This document shows positions 6,539-17,246 of a stretch of DNA of 25,440 nucleotides, one piece after another. Both the position numbers and the translations under genes were made by a program. How positions within the stretch are numbered: the stretch's first letter is position 1; every line of letters starts with the position of its first letter. The notes under the pieces are model-generated. The model did not search any database. It had not been told where the DNA came from and worked only from the letters and a program-made list of their open reading frames with translations. The DNA comes from a virus: positions 1 through 25,440 of IMG/VR virus record IMGVR_UViG_3300025141_006002; one strand, given 5' to 3'.

Positions 6539-7492
6539 CTATGCAACTAAATTGTATCTCGGAAGTTCATTCTTCCATACACCACTCATCGTAGCGTTCA
6601 TCACTTCAATTCCTTTAGTTTCCTCTAGTAGAACACCTTCTACCTTATAAAAATTCTTATCGCCTTTATTATGACAACGAACAACCGACAATCCTTTATC
6701 CCTTAACTCATCTGCTATCCCTACAATCGCTGTTCGGTACATCATTCCTGTGATATACCAAAGCTGTTTGCCATTGTGATAACTGATAGGTTGCTTGTTA
6801 ATCGCTTCTTCGTGATCAAAATCTTTCAGTACATATTTGCCATCAACGTAGTCATACTGATCTACTCGATACTTACCACCAGTGAAGGTTTGGTCTAACC
6901 CTGTTAAGATAATGGGATTGCAACCCATATAGGCTGCTAACCGAATAGCGTTAGGGCCTACCGAACCACTAGTGGGAATACCTACATAGTCTCGGTACAT
7001 ATACCACATATACTTTTTGAACCATGCTTCCTCTGGATCAAAAGCACTGAACCCATATACCTTCCCTTTCGTTTTCCAGAACTCTACCATCTCAGGCAAA
7101 ACAAAAGTTGCACATATCAATGTAACGTCATCTATGGGAAGGTTTCCTATTCTCTCTGGTTTATATTGACCATCGAAAATATGTACATAGTCTGGTTTAA
7201 TACCATTCTTCATCAATAGACTCATAGAACTATTGGTACTGATAACCAACCCATCGAAGTTCTTTATATGAGGTATTGTATCTTCAAGGCTAGGTCCTGA
7301 TCCTGTAATCAATGCAGGTTTGTTTTTATGTGCCATGAACAAGTTAGCAAAGTTTTCTTCTTCGCCTAACAGTTTACTTCCATAGTTAGTTGCAGTATTG
7401 GATACCCATTTGTGTAACCAACCTTGCATTATCTTTTCGTTCCTAGCTTTTAACTGTTCCTTCTTCAAAAGTCCTGCATTATCCATATACAC
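6539..7492 (-). CDS. DUF115 / Maf-like glycosyltransferase-family protein (317 aa)
   Basis: The central domain carries the hallmarks of the DUF115 family (also annotated as MptE-like or flagellin-modifying Maf). These are a nucleotide-binding turn ALITGSGPSLEDTIP near residues 60-74, a STNSS strand end near 85-89, DYVHIFDG near 101-108, and SGSVGPNAIRLAAYMG (175-190) followed by GLDQTF (198-203). Maf proteins attach pseudaminic or legionaminic acid to flagellin Ser/Thr; other family members have unrelated roles, so the exact reaction is not proven. The gene lies just after two tiny membrane-protein genes and the fibre cluster, which suits a virion- or envelope-modifying enzyme. The family assignment is firm. 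The sugar donor and the acceptor are inferred. Confidence 0.8.
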   Translation of the reverse strand: MYMDNAGLLKKEQLKARNEKIMQGWLHKWVSNTATNYGSKLLGEEENFANLFMAHKNKPALITGSGPSLEDTIPHIKNFDGLVISTNSSMSLLMKNGIKPDYVHIFDGQYKPERIGNLPIDDVTLICATFVLPEMVEFWKTKGKVYGFSAFDPEEAWFKKYMWYMYRDYVGIPTSGSVGPNAIRLAAYMGCNPIILTGLDQTFTGGKYRVDQYDYVDGKYVLKDFDHEEAINKQPISYHNGKQLWYITGMMYRTAIVGIADELRDKGLSVVRCHNKGDKNFYKVEGVLLEETKGIEVMNATMSGVWKNELPRYNLVA

Positions 7493-8162: not shown

Positions 8163-9716
8163 TTATGCTCCTATCTCAGAAAGAACCATTGACGCTTTAT
8201 GCGGTTGATTCTGATTAAATTTACCAGTACCTCCAGTAACTCGTATCATCACCGCATACGTTGCAGTAACATTTGTATTTGGTGAATCTACATAAAAACC
8301 AGCCATTGGAACATGAAGATCAAAATTAGCACCATCTTGCTCAATGTATACTCCACCAAATCCATCGTCTTCTCCAGATATGTTAGTTCCTGTTGTAGTT
8401 CCACTTGTAAATCTAAATATAGTCCAATAACACCAATTTCCTCTAGTTCCACCTATATTTATATTTCCATGTAAGCCAATATTTACTACAGAAGCAGAAC
8501 TTGCTGGTAGTATATCTAAAGAAAGTGAAGTAGTAACAAAGGAAGTATTAGTAGTTTGAGTTTCACTAGTAGTAGTAGTGTGCACTACTTGCAACACCTT
8601 CCCTAATCCACGACCATCTACTACTAAATCTCCCAATGTAGCTGTAGCACTTACTACAAGAGAAAGCATGGTTGATGTTGCAGAAACTAATAACGAATTG
8701 GTTATCGCTGTACCACTATTAATAATATTTCCTAGCGTACAAGTTCCACTTACTGTTAAGTTTGGCAAGGTAACGGTATTACTTACTTTCAAATCACCAA
8801 CTGTTGCTGTTCCACTTACTACGATTGTTTTCAGAGTAGATGTAGCCGATACGACTAAAGTATTTAGTGTGGCTGTCGCTGATACAACCATTGTATTGAT
8901 TGTGGCAGTAGCACTCACAACTAATGAATTAGATGTAGTGGTAGCAGATATCAATAACGAATTACCTGTTATTGTTCCACTTGCCTTTATTCCACCAACA
9001 GTGGCTGTTCCAGAACATACTATAGACTTCAATGTAGCAGTTCCACTCGCTATAATGTTACCCAACGTAGCAGTTCCACTCACTGTTAAATTAGGTAAGG
9101 TAACGGTATTCGATACCTTTAAGTCTCCTATCGTAGCAGTTCCACTTACTACTATTGATTTTAAAGTTGCTGTACCACTTGCTATAATGTTGCCAAGTGT
9201 TGCTGTTCCTGATACCACTAAGTTCGGTATAGTAACTGTGTTAGATACTTTTAAATCTCCGACAGTCGCAGTGCCACTACATACCAGACCACTTATCGTA
9301 GCAGTTCCTGATACGACTAATGTACCTAGCGTAGCCAATGCACCTAATGTCGCAGTACCTGACACTTTAAGATTGCCGACAGTAGCACTAGCTATGACAG
9401 TCATTTTGCCTATCTCGGCAACTCCGCCACTAGCGGTGATAGTTACTGTAGCAGAACTACCTACAGCAATCGTTTGTGTTGTGGTTCCCAATGTAATTGT
9501 AGATGACAAAGACATAAGCACATTCGTAGAGAATGACGCTGTAGTTGCAGAGGCAAGATCAAGTTTAGCTGCCTTAATTCCTGCCGAAGAATTTATGTTG
9601 TCGTTGTCTATGTTCCCATTAACGAGAGTATATAAAGTAGTCTCGTTATCTGTAACTTCGGCTGGTTGAATAACATCACCAGCAGTGTAAGTGTAAGGGC
9701 GAGAAACTGTTCCCAT
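8163..9716 (-). CDS. Tail fibre with 11-residue beta-solenoid-like repeats (517 aa)
   Basis: The N-terminus (AGDVIQPAEVTDNETTLYT and NGNIDNDNINSSAGIKAAKL, residues 12-52) is of the type that begins many phage fibre proteins and attaches them to the tail. Residues 105-363 are 23 near-perfect units of 11 residues with consensus [LI]xVSGTATLxx. Variants are SNTVTLPN and SATATLNT, and one short irregular insert of six residues lies at 127-132. The regular Val/Leu plus Ser/Gly/Thr pattern predicts a beta-solenoid or triple beta-prism shaft. The final ~150 residues (LQVVHTTTTSETQTTNTSF to ASMVLSEIGA) resemble a globular C-terminal fibre head. The protein is presumably the host-recognition fibre. 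The receptor cannot be deduced. Confidence 0.85.
   Translation of the reverse strand: MGTVSRPYTYTAGDVIQPAEVTDNETTLYTLVNGNIDNDNINSSAGIKAAKLDLASATTASFSTNVLMSLSSTITLGTTTQTIAVGSSATVTITASGGVAEIGKMTVIASATVGNLKVSGTATLGALATLGTLVVSGTATISGLVCSGTATVGDLKVSNTVTIPNLVVSGTATLGNIIASGTATLKSIVVSGTATIGDLKVSNTVTLPNLTVSGTATLGNIIASGTATLKSIVCSGTATVGGIKASGTITGNSLLISATTTSNSLVVSATATINTMVVSATATLNTLVVSATSTLKTIVVSGTATVGDLKVSNTVTLPNLTVSGTCTLGNIINSGTAITNSLLVSATSTMLSLVVSATATLGDLVVDGRGLGKVLQVVHTTTTSETQTTNTSFVTTSLSLDILPASSASVVNIGLHGNINIGGTRGNWCYWTIFRFTSGTTTGTNISGEDDGFGGVYIEQDGANFDLHVPMAGFYVDSPNTNVTATYAVMIRVTGGTGKFNQNQPHKASMVLSEIGA
8628..9404 (-). repeat. 23 x 33-base repeat array inside the fibre gene
   Basis: Each unit encodes 11 residues. 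A higher-order block of four units (LTVSGTATLGN, IIASGTATLKS, IVVSGTATIGD, LKVSNTVTLPN) recurs every 44 residues (132 bases). It is seen completely near residues 166-209, again from 210, and partly near 298-341. The codons differ between copies more than the residues do, so purifying selection acts on the protein repeat. Confidence 0.85.
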
Positions 9717-10027: not shown

Positions 10028-11616
10028 TATTCAAATCGCCTCAATCCTGGTAGAACTTGGAATCTCAATACCCAAGTATCAATTCGCCATGCAGGGTCTT
10101 TACTCGAATCAGAAAACTTAATAGAGAGTGCTTCACTTCGGTTTGATAAAGATAATCTTTTTATTACTGATATCGCTGCTCCCCATAAATCTTCTCCCCA
10201 TTTAGATACTCCCCAATAAGAAGCAAACCCTCCTGTAGATAGAGCAACAGTATCTGCGGTTATGAAACTACCAGCCCAATTCTCTGCGGTAGATATCGTT
10301 ACTGTTCCACTAGAAGTCTGACCAACGACAGGAATAATTTCTCTCCATCTCTTAGTTACGTCAGGCATATTCGCATGGAATGGACCTGTTTGATATCGAG
10401 AAGCAATAGCGTTTCCATCATTGGCATCAGCAGAAGAATCTCCATCTGCATCGCCTGTTTCTAGTTTGCATATATGACCATCGTAATCTCCTGCATACAA
10501 TACTTCTTGATCATCTTCTATAGCGACACCTAAGTAAGAAAAGTTTCTATCATACTTATCTACAGTCCAAGCACCTATAGGTTGTCCTGTCTTAGGGTCT
10601 GGTGTTCTTAAATCGTAATGATAATTCAATATAATGCTATTTTGTGTTTTATTTTTCTCTGCCACCAAGAAACTTACTCTGGATTGAGAAGCTATATTCA
10701 CGCCTTGTATGTTATCGAACTTTGCTAAATTAATATTAAAGAAATCACTTGTATTAGCGAGAGGTCTTTCTATTCGATTAGATATAATGCGTGTATTAAC
10801 ACCATCAAACTCATAGAAGTTTTCTCTCCAAGGCCAGACTATTAAGTTTCTATTTGCTACGTTGACTATACTTCTTTGATTCGTAGCCCCTACAGAAAGC
10901 CTAACTGCATCCATTCGGATATCATCCCTATCGTGGCCTGATACACGATACATTCTATCTGTGGTAAAGATAAATAAGTCATCATATAACGTAGTCGCTC
11001 CCACAGTTTGTCTATCTGTAGGAAATCGATCAGAATTTCTCCACTGTGTAGAATCACCCTGATGTGATATTTCAAAGTTACTTCCCCTCGCTGGTATCTT
11101 TAAAGCAACAGCGTGTCTGTTCCAGTCACTTACCACTTCTGCCAAAGGTGCAGTCGCTGTGTTTAAATCAGTACAGGCGGTAGCGGAACCATCCCATTGT
11201 AATATGTTAGAGCCACCATCAGACGCAATCATTAATATATCGTTAGATACAGCGAAAGTTACATCTCCACCAGACCAAGTTCCTGAAGGTGTAATGGAAG
11301 TGAACGTATTTGTTCCAGCATCTTTTTTATATATTTTGTTTGCAACGCTTCCACTATTTACGCATACAATTAAGTCTGAGTTTCCAGTGAAACGTAAGTA
11401 GTTAAAGATACCAGTAATCGTTCCAGAACCAACGAGACTAGCTGTATTGACAACGTAATATCCTTTTCTTTTTCGTATTCCACCTGTGGGAATTAAACGA
11501 ACATTATGGATATCTAACGCTTCATGTTCTTTCACAGACGTTATCTGCGTGGAATCATTGATACCACCAACATTCTTTCCAAACTCCACTCTTTGCATTT
11601 GGAGGTTGTTAGCCAT
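10027..11616 (-). CDS. gp10-like tail-hub / DNA-stabilisation protein (529 aa)
   Basis: The N-terminus (FGKNVGGINDSTQITSVKEH, then DIHNVRLIPTGGIRKRKGYY, residues 12-53) matches the opening of the phage hub proteins that begin with a 'net-gain, no-residue' loop and a GG...KRKGY strand; P22 gp10 is the best-known relative. The remaining ~470 residues are a series of short beta strands with propeller-like motifs (ILMIASDGGSNILQWDG; EVLYAGDYDGHICKLETG). The length is close to that of P22 gp10. In short-tailed phages this protein plugs the portal channel below the adaptor and carries the fibre/needle. Here it lies between the enzyme block and the fibre genes, a normal place for it. The family match is by pattern, so moderately confident. 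Confidence 0.65.
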   Translation of the reverse strand: MANNLQMQRVEFGKNVGGINDSTQITSVKEHEALDIHNVRLIPTGGIRKRKGYYVVNTASLVGSGTITGIFNYLRFTGNSDLIVCVNSGSVANKIYKKDAGTNTFTSITPSGTWSGGDVTFAVSNDILMIASDGGSNILQWDGSATACTDLNTATAPLAEVVSDWNRHAVALKIPARGSNFEISHQGDSTQWRNSDRFPTDRQTVGATTLYDDLFIFTTDRMYRVSGHDRDDIRMDAVRLSVGATNQRSIVNVANRNLIVWPWRENFYEFDGVNTRIISNRIERPLANTSDFFNINLAKFDNIQGVNIASQSRVSFLVAEKNKTQNSIILNYHYDLRTPDPKTGQPIGAWTVDKYDRNFSYLGVAIEDDQEVLYAGDYDGHICKLETGDADGDSSADANDGNAIASRYQTGPFHANMPDVTKRWREIIPVVGQTSSGTVTISTAENWAGSFITADTVALSTGGFASYWGVSKWGEDLWGAAISVIKRLSLSNRSEALSIKFSDSSKDPAWRIDTWVLRFQVLPGLRRFE

Positions 11617-12412
11617 AAATATATCCCTTTATTTCTTTGCACCCTTTCACTACTTCTTCAAAGGTGTCGTAATCAATCGCTTGTTCTGCATCGGAAACAG
11701 ACTCATCAGGGTTAGGGTGCACTTCACATAACACACCATCAGCACCTGCTGCCACTCCTGCTCTGGCAAGTCTAGGAACTAACTTTCTGTCTCCACTTCC
11801 ATGAGAAGGATCAGCTACTATTTTCAATGCAGTATATTCTTTTATCATCGCAATAAACGAAGCAGAGAAACTCCACCTACAATGATCTTCAAAACTAACG
11901 ATTCCTCTTTCGCATATTGCTACATCTTCTGCTCCATGTTGAAGCAAATACTCTATAGCCCCAAGCGTTTCATCGACTGTCATCCATGAACCACGTTTTA
12001 ATAATACTTTCTTTCCATAAGAAGCTATCGCTTTCAACAACGGATAATGTTGTGCATGACGCATACCTATTTGTATCCAATCTGCATCAGTAACGTATTG
12101 CATATCTGGTGCATCCATCACTTCCACTATCCAAGGAAGTTTGTTTCCATCTGCTGCTGTTGAAAGAGATAGTGATTTATCTGCTACAAATCCACTATTC
12201 TCTGGAGGGTATGTTCCATATACATAACAACCACCTCGTAGCATGGTTGCTCCTGCTTTCTTAACCACACACGCTATGGCATATATCTGTTCCAAATTCT
12301 CTACGGAACATGGCCCTGCAATAAACTCTAACTCTGGTGCTTCTTTTGCTTGGTAGGAACGTACTAAAGGGTATTTCGCATCAGGTCCGAATAGCTTCGC
12401 TAACCTGGACAT
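11609..12412 (-). CDS. DAHP/KDO-8-P synthase-family aldolase (267 aa)
   Basis: The enzyme family condenses phosphoenolpyruvate with an aldose phosphate to give a 3-deoxy-ulosonate. The family blocks appear in order: IAGPCSVEN (31-39), LRGG (58-61), EVMD (97-100), QIGMRHAQ (114-121), LLKRGSWMT (137-145), CERG (167-170), DPSHGSG (201-207) and EVHPNPDESVSD (230-241). The four metal ligands of the family are present (C35, H204, E230, D241). The usual KPRTS aldose-phosphate loop after LRGG is replaced by CYVYGTYPPEN, with no Lys or Arg. The substrate may therefore not be erythrose 4-phosphate. There is no regulatory N-terminal or chorismate-mutase domain. The gene overlaps the preceding glycosyltransferase gene by 13 bases and lies in an enzyme block, so a surface-sugar role is as likely as an aromatic one. 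Confidence 0.8.
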   Translation of the reverse strand: MSRLAKLFGPDAKYPLVRSYQAKEAPELEFIAGPCSVENLEQIYAIACVVKKAGATMLRGGCYVYGTYPPENSGFVADKSLSLSTAADGNKLPWIVEVMDAPDMQYVTDADWIQIGMRHAQHYPLLKAIASYGKKVLLKRGSWMTVDETLGAIEYLLQHGAEDVAICERGIVSFEDHCRWSFSASFIAMIKEYTALKIVADPSHGSGDRKLVPRLARAGVAAGADGVLCEVHPNPDESVSDAEQAIDYDTFEEVVKGCKEIKGYIYG

Positions 12413-13011
12413 GACATACTTCCTTCATGTCGTTCATAATTGTAAATGGGTTTCTCTGTTTTCACTAATCCCCATTTTGATGTAGCAGTTCCAAAAACTT
12501 CATTAGATATTTTGCGAACAATAGACTCTCCATCATTGATAGGTTCTTCTTCGTTATATCCACAAACTTCTTGCAATAGACTTGTCTGTATCGCTAACCC
12601 TGCTCCCATTACTTTATCAGGATTATCTTCATCCCAATGTCCTTGCACTCCTATAATAGGTTTATCAGAGTGTTGCTCTATCGTATTTACAAAGTGCCAC
12701 AAAGCGTTTGATTCAAGGTAATCATCAGCATCTAACCTGACTATCCAATTTCCTTTTGCTAATGCGATAGCTGCGTTGGCTGCTGCTCCCAACGTATGAT
12801 ATTCACCACCTATTATCTTTCTACCAAATACGCCAGTGCTTTTATATATATCTCCTTCATTCATCCAACTAGGAAACGAAGTTCCATTGGCTATCAATAT
12901 CGTTTCAAATGAAGTAAACGACTGTGCATCTAAGGAACGTAACGCATCTTTTGCTTTAATAGCATAACCATAAGTATGAAACGGAATATAGACTGTAAAA
13001 AATGGGTTCAT
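12400..13011 (-). CDS. Family-2 glycosyltransferase (203 aa)
   Basis: This GT-A fold protein opens with FFTVYIPFHTYGYAIKAKDA, continues with the NG turn ETILIANGTS (36-45), and has the donor-metal motif RLDADDYLE at 92-100. It then has a short acceptor half ending KPIYNYERHEGSMSCPG. At 203 residues it is at the short end for the family, so the acceptor domain is minimal. It transfers a sugar from a nucleotide-sugar to an unknown acceptor. It overlaps the cytidylyltransferase gene by four bases and the aldolase by 13, so the three are probably translated in stoichiometric fashion. There is no membrane segment, so it is probably soluble. A virion or cell-surface polysaccharide is a plausible acceptor. 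Confidence 0.8.
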   Translation of the reverse strand: MNPFFTVYIPFHTYGYAIKAKDALRSLDAQSFTSFETILIANGTSFPSWMNEGDIYKSTGVFGRKIIGGEYHTLGAAANAAIALAKGNWIVRLDADDYLESNALWHFVNTIEQHSDKPIIGVQGHWDEDNPDKVMGAGLAIQTSLLQEVCGYNEEEPINDGESIVRKISNEVFGTATSKWGLVKTEKPIYNYERHEGSMSCPG

Positions 13012-13682
13012 CGCACTTTTTCCTTTGACTTTTGATAATCTAAATACTCGATAACATTATCGAGACAAAATGGCGGTGAATGATTACTAAATAAATCAGA
13101 GAATAATTCTCTTAATCTTTTCAAGTCTTTATATTCGTTTAACTCATAGTTAAAACGTCTTCTATGTCTTTTAGGTACTTCCACTTCATGTATATTGAAT
13201 AGCGTTTTATCTTTTAGTATTTCCCCAATATACTCTGTATTAGGATCTATCTTCATAATCTCTAACAATGCTTTTCTAGATATTACTTCACAATCAAAAC
13301 CTCTAGGTAACTTTGGTATATAGGTATAATCTGCTTCATATTGTAAATGTTCTTTCACTGCTTTCCTGAGATATTCTGGATCAACGAGTATATCGTCAGC
13401 AGTTACTCTGACAATGTGATCCACATTTTTCATTTCAGCAACAGACCATAACCTTTTCGGCACTTCCACTGCTCCATAAAATCCTTCTAACTCATAATGT
13501 TCACAAAACATTTGCAAAGGTTTATCTACATCTCTATCGGAAGTGGCAACAATAACTGGCATTTCTGTCATAAACAATCTGTCTAACAAATGACTTAAAG
13601 CACAACCACCAGTGATAGGCATCAACACTTTGCCATACAAACGTCTTGAATCCATTCTGGCCTGTACTACAATGGGAATCAT
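13008..13682 (-). CDS. SpsF-like cytidylyltransferase (224 aa)
   Basis: The N-terminus VVQARMDSRRLYGKVLMPIT (5-24) is the SpsF/CMP-sugar synthetase signature. R13-R14 and K18 would contact the nucleotide triphosphate. VRVTADDILVDPEYL (91-105) matches the usual RVTGDCPLIDP loop, with Ala for Gly and Asp for Cys, and PRGFDCEVISRKAL (126-139) carries the later metal Asp (D130). Relatives of this family activate acidic sugars as CMP derivatives; Bacillus SpsF itself lies next to a NeuB-like gene. The activity on a particular sugar is not proven. The stop overlaps the next ATG by four bases (ATGA), and it is coupled upstream to a membrane protein in the same way. Confidence 0.8.
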   Translation of the reverse strand: MIPIVVQARMDSRRLYGKVLMPITGGCALSHLLDRLFMTEMPVIVATSDRDVDKPLQMFCEHYELEGFYGAVEVPKRLWSVAEMKNVDHIVRVTADDILVDPEYLRKAVKEHLQYEADYTYIPKLPRGFDCEVISRKALLEIMKIDPNTEYIGEILKDKTLFNIHEVEVPKRHRRRFNYELNEYKDLKRLRELFSDLFSNHSPPFCLDNVIEYLDYQKSKEKVR

Positions 13683-14069: not shown

Positions 14070-14678
14070 TTAATTTCCTCTCATAAAATCTTTAGTTGAT
14101 CCAATAGTTTCACTCATACCACTTCCTTGAGCACCTTCAATATTACCACTTGAAGTTGGAGCTCCAATAACTTCTAGTATTACTTTTCTATCTTCTGGAG
14201 ATAATGCAGGGTCTTTCAAAGCATCTTGAAGCATTTGTATTATTGCAGCAGCTTGATCGGCAGTATAACCATAAGAAATATCTTCATCAGTTGCATCTAT
14301 ATTTTTTCCAGCAGGACTATACGCATTAATATTAAATAATGATCTACCTATTTCTGGAGACATAGGCATATCTATATTTTGTAACCTTTGTAAACGATTA
14401 ACTCTATATCTTTTCTGTCCTACTGGAGGAATATTTAATTCATCCATAACATTTACCTGATCCAAATTAGTTTCATATTCGTCTGGTAATCCAGGACTTA
14501 CAGAAGGAAATGCTTCTGCTATAGGATTGTATGTTTTATAAGGGTCCCTTGTTCTTGGTACTTTAGGTGTCATTTCTCCTGTAGTTCCTAAACCTAATGC
14601 GTTTAAAAATTTGTTTATATTGCCTGATATAAGCTCTGATACCCCTGATCCAGTTGGGTATCCATAATTATTTGCCAT
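14070..14678 (-). CDS. Unknown structural-module protein (202 aa)
   Basis: No family is recognised. The N-terminus is Gly/Asn-rich (MANNYGYPTGSGVSELISGN). A Pro/Tyr-rich extended middle follows (PRTRDPYKTYNPIAEAFP). A helical section near residues 138-172 (TADQAAAIIQMLQDALKDPA then SPEDRKVILEVIG) has a hydrophobic face and may mediate binding. It overlaps the stop of the radical SAM gene by 11 bases and is followed by the 32-residue basic gene. The small composition bias and the context suggest a virion-associated or assembly protein, or a partner of the enzyme block. It has no signal peptide, membrane helix or metal motif. Confidence 0.55.
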   Translation of the reverse strand: MANNYGYPTGSGVSELISGNINKFLNALGLGTTGEMTPKVPRTRDPYKTYNPIAEAFPSVSPGLPDEYETNLDQVNVMDELNIPPVGQKRYRVNRLQRLQNIDMPMSPEIGRSLFNINAYSPAGKNIDATDEDISYGYTADQAAAIIQMLQDALKDPALSPEDRKVILEVIGAPTSSGNIEGAQGSGMSETIGSTKDFMRGN

Positions 14679-15729
14679 TACCTAACCTCCATACCCATGC
14701 GTCTTTAGCCCAACATGACTCGCATGGTGCAGTCTTTTCTTGTCTGCCTTCATGTTGTGCATCTCTCATATCTTGTAACTCTATAGAATTATTCCAAATC
14801 TCTTGTAAACTATGTGTATTGGCATCGCCTACTGGTCTGTTCTCAAACCAATCTGCACAGCATCCCATTACTTTGCCATCATATCCAATCGTCAATCTTT
14901 GAAAAGGTTGTTTGCATACTGCTCTCTCCACTGCAATCCAATCGTCTATCAGAAAGTTACCATCGGCTCCTCTATCCATTACTGCCGATACTCTTACATC
15001 GTCAACTATATCTTTCCACTTCCTGACAAATCCTTCGACTTCGTGTTCGTTACTTTTTTGTTTGCACATTTGCACACGAATAAACGGTTTAGATAACCCT
15101 TTACTGTTTCGGTATAAAACTGCTTGTTCAATCGTTTTCGTAAGTTCGTCAAAGTCTCCACCTATTCGTATATCTTCAAATGTATCTTTCGTATTCCCAT
15201 CTACGCTAAATATAATTCTATCTACTCCAGCGTCTATTAAATCTTCTACCTTGCAACCTCTCATATTGCCATTGGTATTTAACTGTACTTCAGGGATACC
15301 TAAACCCTTTGCTTTCCTTGTTAACTGAGCAATCTGTTTATGTAGAGTTGCTTCCCCTCGCCAGTTCCATTTAATACTGGATACACCCATCTCAGCAGCT
15401 TCTTCCAATAAACGATCAGCCAATTCATACTTCATGGCTCCCTTTACATTTTCATCGTATGCCTGTGGACACATGGTACATTTAAAGTTACAAGCATAAC
15501 TAAGTTCTATATCTAAATGTATAGGAAACTTTGGAGTATAAACCCAGTTAAGAAACTTTTTCCCTGCATTATGCCATTTGGTTCGATACAGCAGGTATTT
15601 CCATTCCTTTATCCTTTTGGCTGTCTCCTTCACTGCTGACAGATTCCTGTTGTTTAGCCAAGTACTCCCGTTCAAGTGCACAACAGTTTTTGAAGGTTTC
15701 TTCGATTCGCTTTCTATTCTCTCTACCAT
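14668..15729 (-). CDS. Radical SAM / SPASM-like enzyme (353 aa)
   Basis: The [4Fe-4S] site is C80-x3-C84-x2-C87 (CNFKCTMCPQ) within the first strand of a TIM barrel (HLDIELSYACN). Later family strands are present: IKWNWRGEATLH (119-130), VQLNTNGN (148-155) and RIIFSVDGNT (171-180). A C-terminal cluster of Cys (C272, C290-C291, C336, C339) looks like a one-cluster SPASM or twitch domain. The family uses S-adenosylmethionine to start radical chemistry such as epimerisation, dehydrogenation, or peptide/sugar modification. The actual substrate is unknown. It follows, and overlaps by 161 bases, the methyltransferase, so both may modify the same acceptor. The start has an AGGAG upstream (15-base spacing) with a nearer AAGAG. 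A later non-ATG start would shorten the overlap. Confidence 0.85.
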   Translation of the reverse strand: MVERIESESKKPSKTVVHLNGSTWLNNRNLSAVKETAKRIKEWKYLLYRTKWHNAGKKFLNWVYTPKFPIHLDIELSYACNFKCTMCPQAYDENVKGAMKYELADRLLEEAAEMGVSSIKWNWRGEATLHKQIAQLTRKAKGLGIPEVQLNTNGNMRGCKVEDLIDAGVDRIIFSVDGNTKDTFEDIRIGGDFDELTKTIEQAVLYRNSKGLSKPFIRVQMCKQKSNEHEVEGFVRKWKDIVDDVRVSAVMDRGADGNFLIDDWIAVERAVCKQPFQRLTIGYDGKVMGCCADWFENRPVGDANTHSLQEIWNNSIELQDMRDAQHEGRQEKTAPCESCWAKDAWVWRLGNGK

Positions 15730-16594
15730 AATGCTCTTGCGTTTCTCCTGGGCGAAGTTTGCGAGATAGGGAACGTATTCCTCTACTGTAATAGTCTAAT
15801 CGTTCCAGATAAAATCCTGCCTTATTTAACATTCTACCTAGTGTTCTAGGTGTATATAAGGTTAAATGTGGTGAAGCAGTAAAGTTATCGCACATCATAT
15901 TAAATCGGCTATATTCATTACCCCAAGGATACTCCACTGTCGGAACTCCTATATATAACCAACCATCGGAATATAATCTATCGTTACACAACTTCAAAAA
16001 CGCTACAGGGTCGTGTATATGTTCTAACACTTGTTGTGCTGTAATTAAGTCAAATGTTAAGTTACGCCAAGACTTCTTCTTAAACTCCCCTGTTTCCACT
16101 TGACACAACTTATTTGCCCTAGCCCAATCTGCATATACTTTATTAGGTTCTATCGCATAAGTATCCCACTTAGGCCCACCATTCTCTCCCATCTTTTCAT
16201 GGGTATATGGTAACAATCCCTCGCCAGTGCCCACATCGAGCATCCTTCCTGATTTAGGAAAAACCTTGTCTTCGTGAATGAAGTCATAAACATCTGCTGC
16301 ATCCTTTAATTTATAATCTACATTCTTTTGTTGTGGTACTTGTGGTCTATATAACTTGCTGTAAAACCTGTCTGCTGTTTTCTTAGTCCATCTAGGAGAT
16401 TGGTATATCAGTTCACAATCATCACAGTAATAGAAAGATACTTTGAAATCTTTTGGTACTTTTAATTGGTTTAAGTATGGATCGTCATCATGCTCAAAAT
16501 ACAAATCACGTTTCTTTGAATTACATAAAGGACAATCTACTTCTTCAAACTGTTCATCCAACCCAGATTCCGTCAACTGTATACCCCTCATCAT
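15569..16594 (-). CDS. Zinc-knuckle class I SAM methyltransferase (341 aa)
   Basis: The ORF is open to 16696, but the likely start is the MM at 16589-16594, which has AAGGA upstream (12-base spacing). The earlier ORF Met would need a much longer overlap with the adaptor gene. The N-terminal C21-P-L-C24 and C57-D-D-C60 pairs form a zinc knuckle like that of sugar C-methyltransferases. The Rossmann domain has motif I LDVGTGEG (119-126), an acidic AIEP (147-150) and the motif IV-like AQQVLEHIHDP (186-196). The C-terminal 160 residues include LTLYTPRTLGRMLNKAGF. The family methylates nucleotide-sugars or small molecules, so a deoxy-sugar or lipid substrate is plausible. It overlaps the adaptor gene by 41 bases and the radical SAM gene by 161. 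Confidence 0.8.
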   Translation of the reverse strand: MMRGIQLTESGLDEQFEEVDCPLCNSKKRDLYFEHDDDPYLNQLKVPKDFKVSFYYCDDCELIYQSPRWTKKTADRFYSKLYRPQVPQQKNVDYKLKDAADVYDFIHEDKVFPKSGRMLDVGTGEGLLPYTHEKMGENGGPKWDTYAIEPNKVYADWARANKLCQVETGEFKKKSWRNLTFDLITAQQVLEHIHDPVAFLKLCNDRLYSDGWLYIGVPTVEYPWGNEYSRFNMMCDNFTASPHLTLYTPRTLGRMLNKAGFYLERLDYYSRGIRSLSRKLRPGETQEHYGRENRKRIEETFKNCCALEREYLAKQQESVSSEGDSQKDKGMEIPAVSNQMA

Positions 16595-17246
16595 CTGTGG
16601 GCACGATCCTTCTCGGAGATTGTCTCTGTCTTCCTTCCAATGTGGCAGTAAGAATTGCTTCCTCTGAAGAAAGTTCCATTGTAGGATCACGACCATCTTG
16701 CAGGCGAAGTTGTAAGTTTAATAATGCTCTCAAAGCAATTACTTTAGCCCATCTATCAGGGCAATCTATTACAGTAGTAGTGGTAGAAAGCCTTGTTGCA
16801 GAGGGAACCCAAGTAACTTCAATAGCATCGGTTGCTGCTTGTGTTGGCGGAGGTACAAGTTGCACTGCATTTGCTTCTATATAATAATAGAATTGGTCAT
16901 TTCTAGTAGCAGTCATACTACCATCTTCAAAGTAATACTTTTCTGTTTTAGCACTCAATGGAACAACTGGTTGTCTGTCTCCATCACTTTGTATTACCTC
17001 GACCAAATCAATTTTTTTGAATGTTGATGTTACAGCAGGATTTAGATCACGACTATCTGCCACTAAACTTGCTGTATGTATTTCTTCAAAATACCCTTCA
17101 TCAGACGCTACAATTATATCATAATAATGCTCATGTGCTGCATTTACAGCCCTTAATATTTGAGCATCACTCAATGTAGCTGTGGCACTATCTGTATCTG
17201 TTAATGTTCTTACTTCCGTTATAATTGTAGTCGCAGTAGTTGCCAT
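16554..17246 (-). CDS. Head-tail adaptor protein (230 aa)
   Basis: The first 45 residues have a helical phage-adaptor pattern (ITEVRTLTDTDS, LSDAQILRAVNAAHEHYYDI). The protein continues with a beta segment and a second helical section (DRWAKVIALRALLNLQLRLQDG, residues 162-183), and ends GYTVDGIWVG. This resembles the gp4/gp6-like connector proteins that bind the portal ring and serve as gatekeeper attachment sites. The gene comes after the coat and two small structural genes and before the gp10-like protein (with the enzyme block between), as in P22-type phages. TAATG overlap with the upstream gene. The homology is by pattern. Confidence 0.65.
   Translation of the reverse strand: MATTATTIITEVRTLTDTDSATATLSDAQILRAVNAAHEHYYDIIVASDEGYFEEIHTASLVADSRDLNPAVTSTFKKIDLVEVIQSDGDRQPVVPLSAKTEKYYFEDGSMTATRNDQFYYYIEANAVQLVPPPTQAATDAIEVTWVPSATRLSTTTTVIDCPDRWAKVIALRALLNLQLRLQDGRDPTMELSSEEAILTATLEGRQRQSPRRIVPTDDEGYTVDGIWVG

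Follow-up and report, generated by a model that had tools for sequence, protein, structure and literature searches.

A phage-specific clade of DAHP synthase-like aldolases lacking the KPRTS loop, encoded in a putative CMP-sugar cassette

What reaction does an enzyme of the DAHP synthase superfamily catalyze in a tailed phage once its sugar-phosphate loop has been lost? The question is posed by one gene in a 25,440-nucleotide stretch of marine viral DNA (IMG/VR record IMGVR_UViG_3300025141_006002), referred to here as the window, whose portal and major head proteins (PHROGs) and terminase-like ORFs mark the genome as that of a tailed phage. We favor, with moderate confidence, the reading that the gene product is a phage-specific PEP-dependent ulosonate synthase that supplies a CMP-sugar glycosylation pathway, whose target is probably the virion; its activity, substrate, product and acceptor are all inferred. 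The gene and its key positions are as follows.

11609..12412, minus strand: PEP-dependent aldolase of the DAHP synthase superfamily with a GTYP loop, 267 aa (Pfam DAHP_synth_1, AlphaFold model)
12308..12310, minus strand: metal ligand C35, invariant in 29/29 aligned proteins
12203..12229, minus strand: loop C62-P70, CYVYGTYPP, which replaces AFKPRTSPY (alignments)
11801..11803, minus strand: metal ligand H204, invariant in 29/29 aligned proteins
11723..11725, minus strand: metal ligand E230, invariant in 29/29 aligned proteins
11690..11692, minus strand: metal ligand D241, nearly invariant among the 29 proteins (one of the 29 rows is truncated before this position)

The aldolase matched Pfam DAHP_synth_1 (PF00793) at 156 bits against a cut-off of 25.5, and among solved structures it is nearest to class I-beta DAHP synthases. 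A fold search with its AlphaFold model (pLDDT 89) returned DAHP synthases, including 1vr6, at Z scores of about 36 and KDO-8-phosphate synthases (KDO8PS) at about 30, and the protein meets our criterion of a class I-beta DAHP synthase TIM-barrel fold. Its best NCBIfam models are likewise DAHP synthases, but it scored below their curated cut-offs (TIGR01361, 234.4 vs. 267.75 bits; PRK08673, 255.6 vs. 335 bits). The KANRS loop of KDO8PS is absent, the curated KDO8PS model gave 78.7 bits against a cut-off of 242, and the Pfam NeuB model reached 21.2, just below its gathering score of 22.1.

In DAHP synthases, the KPRTS loop binds the aldose phosphate, while PEP is bound by Arg and Lys residues; the corresponding residues of AroG are R92, K97, R99, R165, K186, and R234. 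The first-pass annotation, made from the sequence alone, had claimed that the four metal ligands and the LLKRG, CERG, and DPSHGSG blocks are present, that KPRTS is lost after LRGG, and that QIGARN is replaced by QIGMRHAQ. These claims all held. The ligands were found together with the three blocks (residues 137-141, 167-170, and 201-207, respectively), and alignment to the solved enzymes 1vs1 and 1zco placed LRGG-CYVYGTYPP opposite LRGG-AFKPRTSPY, the Lys of KPRTS becoming Val and the Arg becoming Gly, with Thr retained. The Arg of QIGARN is nonetheless kept in QIGMRH. The enzyme is indeed short and without a regulatory domain, as was also claimed, but this does not discriminate, since 1zco of P. 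furiosus has 262 aa. Alignments also revealed that the PEP-site residues R59, R118, K139, R169, and H204 are retained. The metal and PEP sites are intact, and the sugar-phosphate loop is lost.

Sequencing error and decay can both be excluded as sources of this loop, because it is repeated in environmental copies and purifying selection acts on the gene. Near-identical copies or fragments occur in 18 environmental phage contigs (93-100% identity to the window aldolase) with the loop essentially unchanged, and dN/dS ranged from 0.04 to 0.21 in the nine close copies compared. In one close relative (L016:5273-6085), it is precisely the substrate loop that is lengthened by an in-frame insertion of four residues (a YPPA/YPPE repeat). 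The possibility of a degenerate or inactive gene was rejected on the basis of the dN/dS values and the invariant metal site.

A wider search uncovered a clade at 38-45% identity, characterized by an N-terminal WGPxPxY, RGGxFRAGTYP, and HxRWDLS; at least 25 divergent phage aldolases share RGGxFRAGTYP and HxRW. Most relatives read RAGTYP, compared with CYVYGTYPP in the window, KPRTS is absent clade-wide, and H177, R179, and W180 (HxRW) are invariant across the phage family. A DNA pattern for the loop matched 24 viral contigs, of which 23 encode clear clade aldolases and one is a contig-end fragment, and a QIGMRH DNA pattern retrieved from viral contigs aldolases of the window's own clade and no others. 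Across 84,980 bacterial and archaeal genomes (one per species), the RAGT(Y/F)P pattern matched once, in an Endomicrobiia MAG; the 30.9-kb contig bearing the match has a gene for a Mu-like portal as well. The family profile gave this contig 392 bits, compared with no more than 270 bits for ordinary bacterial enzymes, the latter value being the best among 295 genomes of the same phylum. Window-like variants would escape a search that demands a RAGT(Y/F)P-type loop; a scan with the window clade found no relative in bacterial or archaeal genome contigs. In a family tree built without the loop columns (this and the structure comparison above were checks proposed by the earlier annotation), the window protein joined the phage GTYP clade with support of 89/77, on a long branch and apart from bacterial DAHP synthases. 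The loop change is a fixed trait of a phage-specific clade that is separate from the bacterial enzymes.

The aldolase gene belongs to a cassette, of which the window holds these further members.

12400..13011, minus strand: family-2 glycosyltransferase (GT2), 203 aa (Pfam PF00535, 33.5 bits)
13008..13682, minus strand: SpsF/KdsB-like cytidylyltransferase, 224 aa (CTP_transf_3, 50.7 bits, cut-off 22.6)
14668..15729, minus strand: radical SAM/SPASM protein (Pfam PF04055 and PF13186; cassette homologues)
15569..16696, minus strand: SAM-dependent methyltransferase (Pfam Methyltransf_23, 68 bits; cassette family F1)

Cytidylyltransferase and GT2 are separate genes in the window and a single fused gene elsewhere, the former corresponding to the N-terminal half of the fusion and the latter to its C-terminal half. 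The cytidylyltransferase profile matched solved cytidylyltransferases, KDO cytidylyltransferases among them, and the GT2 matched a phage glycosyltransferase moron family. Nothing else from the shikimate pathway was recognized in the window, and a promoter/terminator scan gave signal no better than shuffles. The radical SAM and methyltransferase ORFs (14668-16696) overlap by about 160 bases, and their true starts probably lie further in. The products of 13008-13682 and 14668-15729 both match halves of the spirochaete spiro-SPASM protein (TIGR04321), which suggests that cytidylyltransferase-like and radical SAM/SPASM parts also cooperate in bacteria. A fibre-like protein of repeated SGTATLGxI-like units, without a PHROG match, is encoded at 8163-9716.

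In divergent phages, the gene order is radical SAM, cytidylyltransferase-GT2 fusion, small protein, aldolase, and methyltransferase; beyond the cassette families, BLAST detected no gene family shared between the window and these loci. A search from the cytidylyltransferase-GT2 protein yielded 53 viral loci, four of which are unreadable at the synthase slot, their contigs stopping just after the fusion gene. A PEP-dependent synthase was present in all 49 of the remaining loci: the GTYP aldolase in 30, NeuB in 11 (downstream of the slot and outside it in one, L136), a third DAHPS-like type in six, and both aldolase and NeuB in two. These counts are not independent events, as the loci are partly interrelated, and the window clade accounts for 12 of the 30 aldolase-only loci, all near-identical. 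NeuB identity was confirmed by Pfam scores above cut-off for 7/7 proteins tested. A profile comparison of the aldolase with phage NeuB was not significant, so the two are treated as analogues at that sensitivity. Viral contigs with a canonical KPRTS DAHP synthase, with KDO8PS, or picked by chance carried none of the other cassette genes. We regard the replacement of one synthase by another in this slot as the strongest evidence on the function of the aldolase. The first-pass annotation, which missed both the phage origin of the gene and its cytidylyltransferase/glycosyltransferase cassette, had inferred a changed substrate, either non-phosphorylated or a different aldose; this claim is supported by the wider evidence, because the loop change is fixed in the phage clade and NeuB shares the slot, with the activity itself still inferred.

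The third synthase type, very divergent and with a GGTRPDRF-type loop, is found in L128, L130, L132, L134, L135, and L141, and several of its cassettes additionally hold an NAD-dependent epimerase. In two loci, a NeuB-like gene lies directly upstream of the GTYP aldolase (L058:9304-9984 and L073:9488-10171); conserved motif residues are gone from the L073 copy (SDHT and EKHF are altered), as if it were under replacement. Since these loci carry both genes, it is possible that aldolase and NeuB are not interchangeable. Most cassettes also encode a small protein of 110-125 aa between the fusion and synthase genes (L057:9395-9766 and L062:7711-8049, for example). Profile comparison links its two main forms (E 2e-5), and the copies tested matched neither Pfam nor PHROGs. 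No phosphatase-type gene was recognized among the cassette proteins screened, and no flippase-type gene was recognized in the cassettes.

A candidate for attaching the sugar is also encoded in the window.

6539..7492, minus strand: MptE-like/Maf-type transferase, 317 aa (PF01973, 100.5 bits)

PF01973 also contains archaeal pterin kinases. The window protein resembled the Maf structure 5mu5 (phmmer E 6.5e-5), and a profile of cassette Maf-type proteins found 5mu5 first (3.7e-8) and pterin kinases weakly. It has both the MptE-like central domain and the similarity to 5mu5 that we set as the criterion for a Maf-type protein. Its AlphaFold model is poor (pLDDT 54), and the presence of Maf and CMP-sialyltransferases near the top of the fold matches is merely supportive; the PseD model gave only 38.6 against 670, and bacterial Maf is twice as long. 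Of 38 cassette records, 31 encode an MptE-like protein of about 330 aa; the other seven are all fragments shorter than 24 kb, so no cassette contig at or above that length is without one. None of 18 control viral contigs had a PF01973 match above cut-off, and one had a weak match (Fisher p 2e-9 vs. cassettes). The Maf-type gene directly precedes a tail-region protein of about 345 aa in 6/6 non-window genomes examined, and this protein belongs to phrog_290 (tail) in 2/2 tested. In the window, the gene lies among late genes of unknown role, with no recognized tail protein adjoining.

In our preferred reading, class I-beta DAHP synthase gave rise to the aldolase, which would now act as a PEP-dependent 3-deoxy-2-ulosonate synthase. 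Its predicted reaction joins PEP to an aldose that cannot be named, either non-phosphorylated or different in some other way, to form an ulosonate. The adjacent cytidylyltransferase would use CTP to convert this acidic sugar to a CMP-sugar. Tailoring of the sugar or of its carrier would fall to the radical SAM protein and the methyltransferase, and transfer of the sugar, with a tail protein of the virion as the likeliest acceptor, to the Maf-type protein, the GT2, or both. This reading rests mainly on the slot exchange, because NeuB condenses PEP and an aldose to a nonulosonate. Legionaminic acid synthase uses a non-phosphorylated hexose as substrate, and Maf4 is a putative transferase to flagellin (PMC9298399). 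There is precedent for virion decoration in mycobacteriophages, which glycosylate proteins of the capsid and the tail tube (Freeman et al., 2023, as cited in PMC12363180). Against the model, GT2 enzymes are not usual CMP-sugar users. Moreover, most relatives carry an Arg at the position of the loop Lys, but the window clade is without even this substitute and has to catalyze its reaction in the absence of both. A bolder reading, which we regard as somewhat less likely than not, is that a widespread family of uncultured tailed phages makes its own CMP-ulosonic acid, with which a short Maf-type enzyme decorates the tail protein; the virus-specific synthase, derived from DAHP synthase and interchanged with NeuB, would then form part of a viral counterpart of flagellin glycosylation.

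An alternative that we consider unlikely retains the identical synthase pathway but directs the sugar to a host envelope glycan, for receptor masking or seroconversion, rather than to the virion. In its favor, the GT2 domain of the fusion also matches a GtrB-like O-antigen conversion family, and the window GT2 resembles the phage moron family. Against it, the cassettes have no recognized flippase-type gene and are surrounded by late genes, and the tail operon includes the Maf-type gene. It is also improbable that the substrate is a phosphorylated aldose other than erythrose 4-phosphate, bound by different residues, with a host phosphatase acting afterwards. KDO and Neu5Ac-9-phosphate synthesis do use a phosphorylated aldose followed by a phosphatase, the invariant H177, R179, and W180 could serve as the alternative binding residues, and the model fold is near KDO8PS too (Z of about 30). 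However, the KDO8PS loop is absent, KDO8PS models score far below cut-off, and no phosphatase gene was recognized in the cassette. That the aldolase is an auxiliary metabolic gene, a DAHP synthase boosting the host shikimate pathway during infection, is very unlikely: although the nearest solved structures and NCBIfam models are DAHP synthases, it falls below the curated scores, its clade lacks KPRTS, the window has no recognized further shikimate gene, the slot is common to NeuB, and viral contigs with a canonical KPRTS enzyme are without any other cassette gene.

If the ulosonate synthase reading is true, sugar chemistry of a sialic-acid-like kind is encoded by phages themselves, and the DAHP synthase superfamily includes a new substrate class that arose in phages. 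The swapping of unrelated synthases in one fixed cassette offers a direct, testable route to the substrate, and it would be misleading to annotate such genes as shikimate auxiliary metabolic genes, as would otherwise happen. Among GenBank phages, a nucleotide search with part of the cassette gave no match, and an aldolase protein search returned nothing beyond DAHP/KDO8P-synthase family matches; the two inspected had a KPRTS loop and a KDO8PS-type KANR loop, respectively. Protein searches of the same phages detected no full-length fusion, no Maf-type protein, and one partial radical SAM match, and literature searches for this cassette or for phage nonulosonate synthesis returned nothing relevant.

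Compared with class I-beta DAHP synthases (1rzm/1vr6 of T. maritima, 1vs1 of A. pernix), the aldolase shares the fold, the four metal ligands, the PEP-binding Arg/Lys/Arg, and about 36-44% identity, but has xxGTYP for KPRTS, GMRH for GARN, and an added HxRW, and its gene lies in a phage sugar cassette rather than an aro operon. As in mycobacteriophages, phage-encoded enzymes are proposed to place a sugar on virion proteins; the mycobacteriophage system consists of glycosyltransferases, with no PEP synthase, CMP-ulosonate, or Maf route in the relevant sections of PMC12363180. With NeuB/SpsE/LegI (PF03102), the aldolase shares the cassette slot and presumably the step from PEP and aldose to ulosonate, but it belongs to a different sequence family. 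The proposed phage pathway would parallel the NeuB - NeuA/SpsF - Maf route, which places nonulosonic acids on bacterial flagellin, and this glycosylation with legionaminic or pseudaminic acid (Leg/Pse) likewise brings together a synthase, a CMP-transferase, and a Maf-type transferase. Dedicated precursor enzymes of the flagellin route were not recognized in the phages, whose cassette adds radical SAM/SPASM, methyltransferase, and GT2 proteins and relies on a synthase that is mostly DAHPS-derived.
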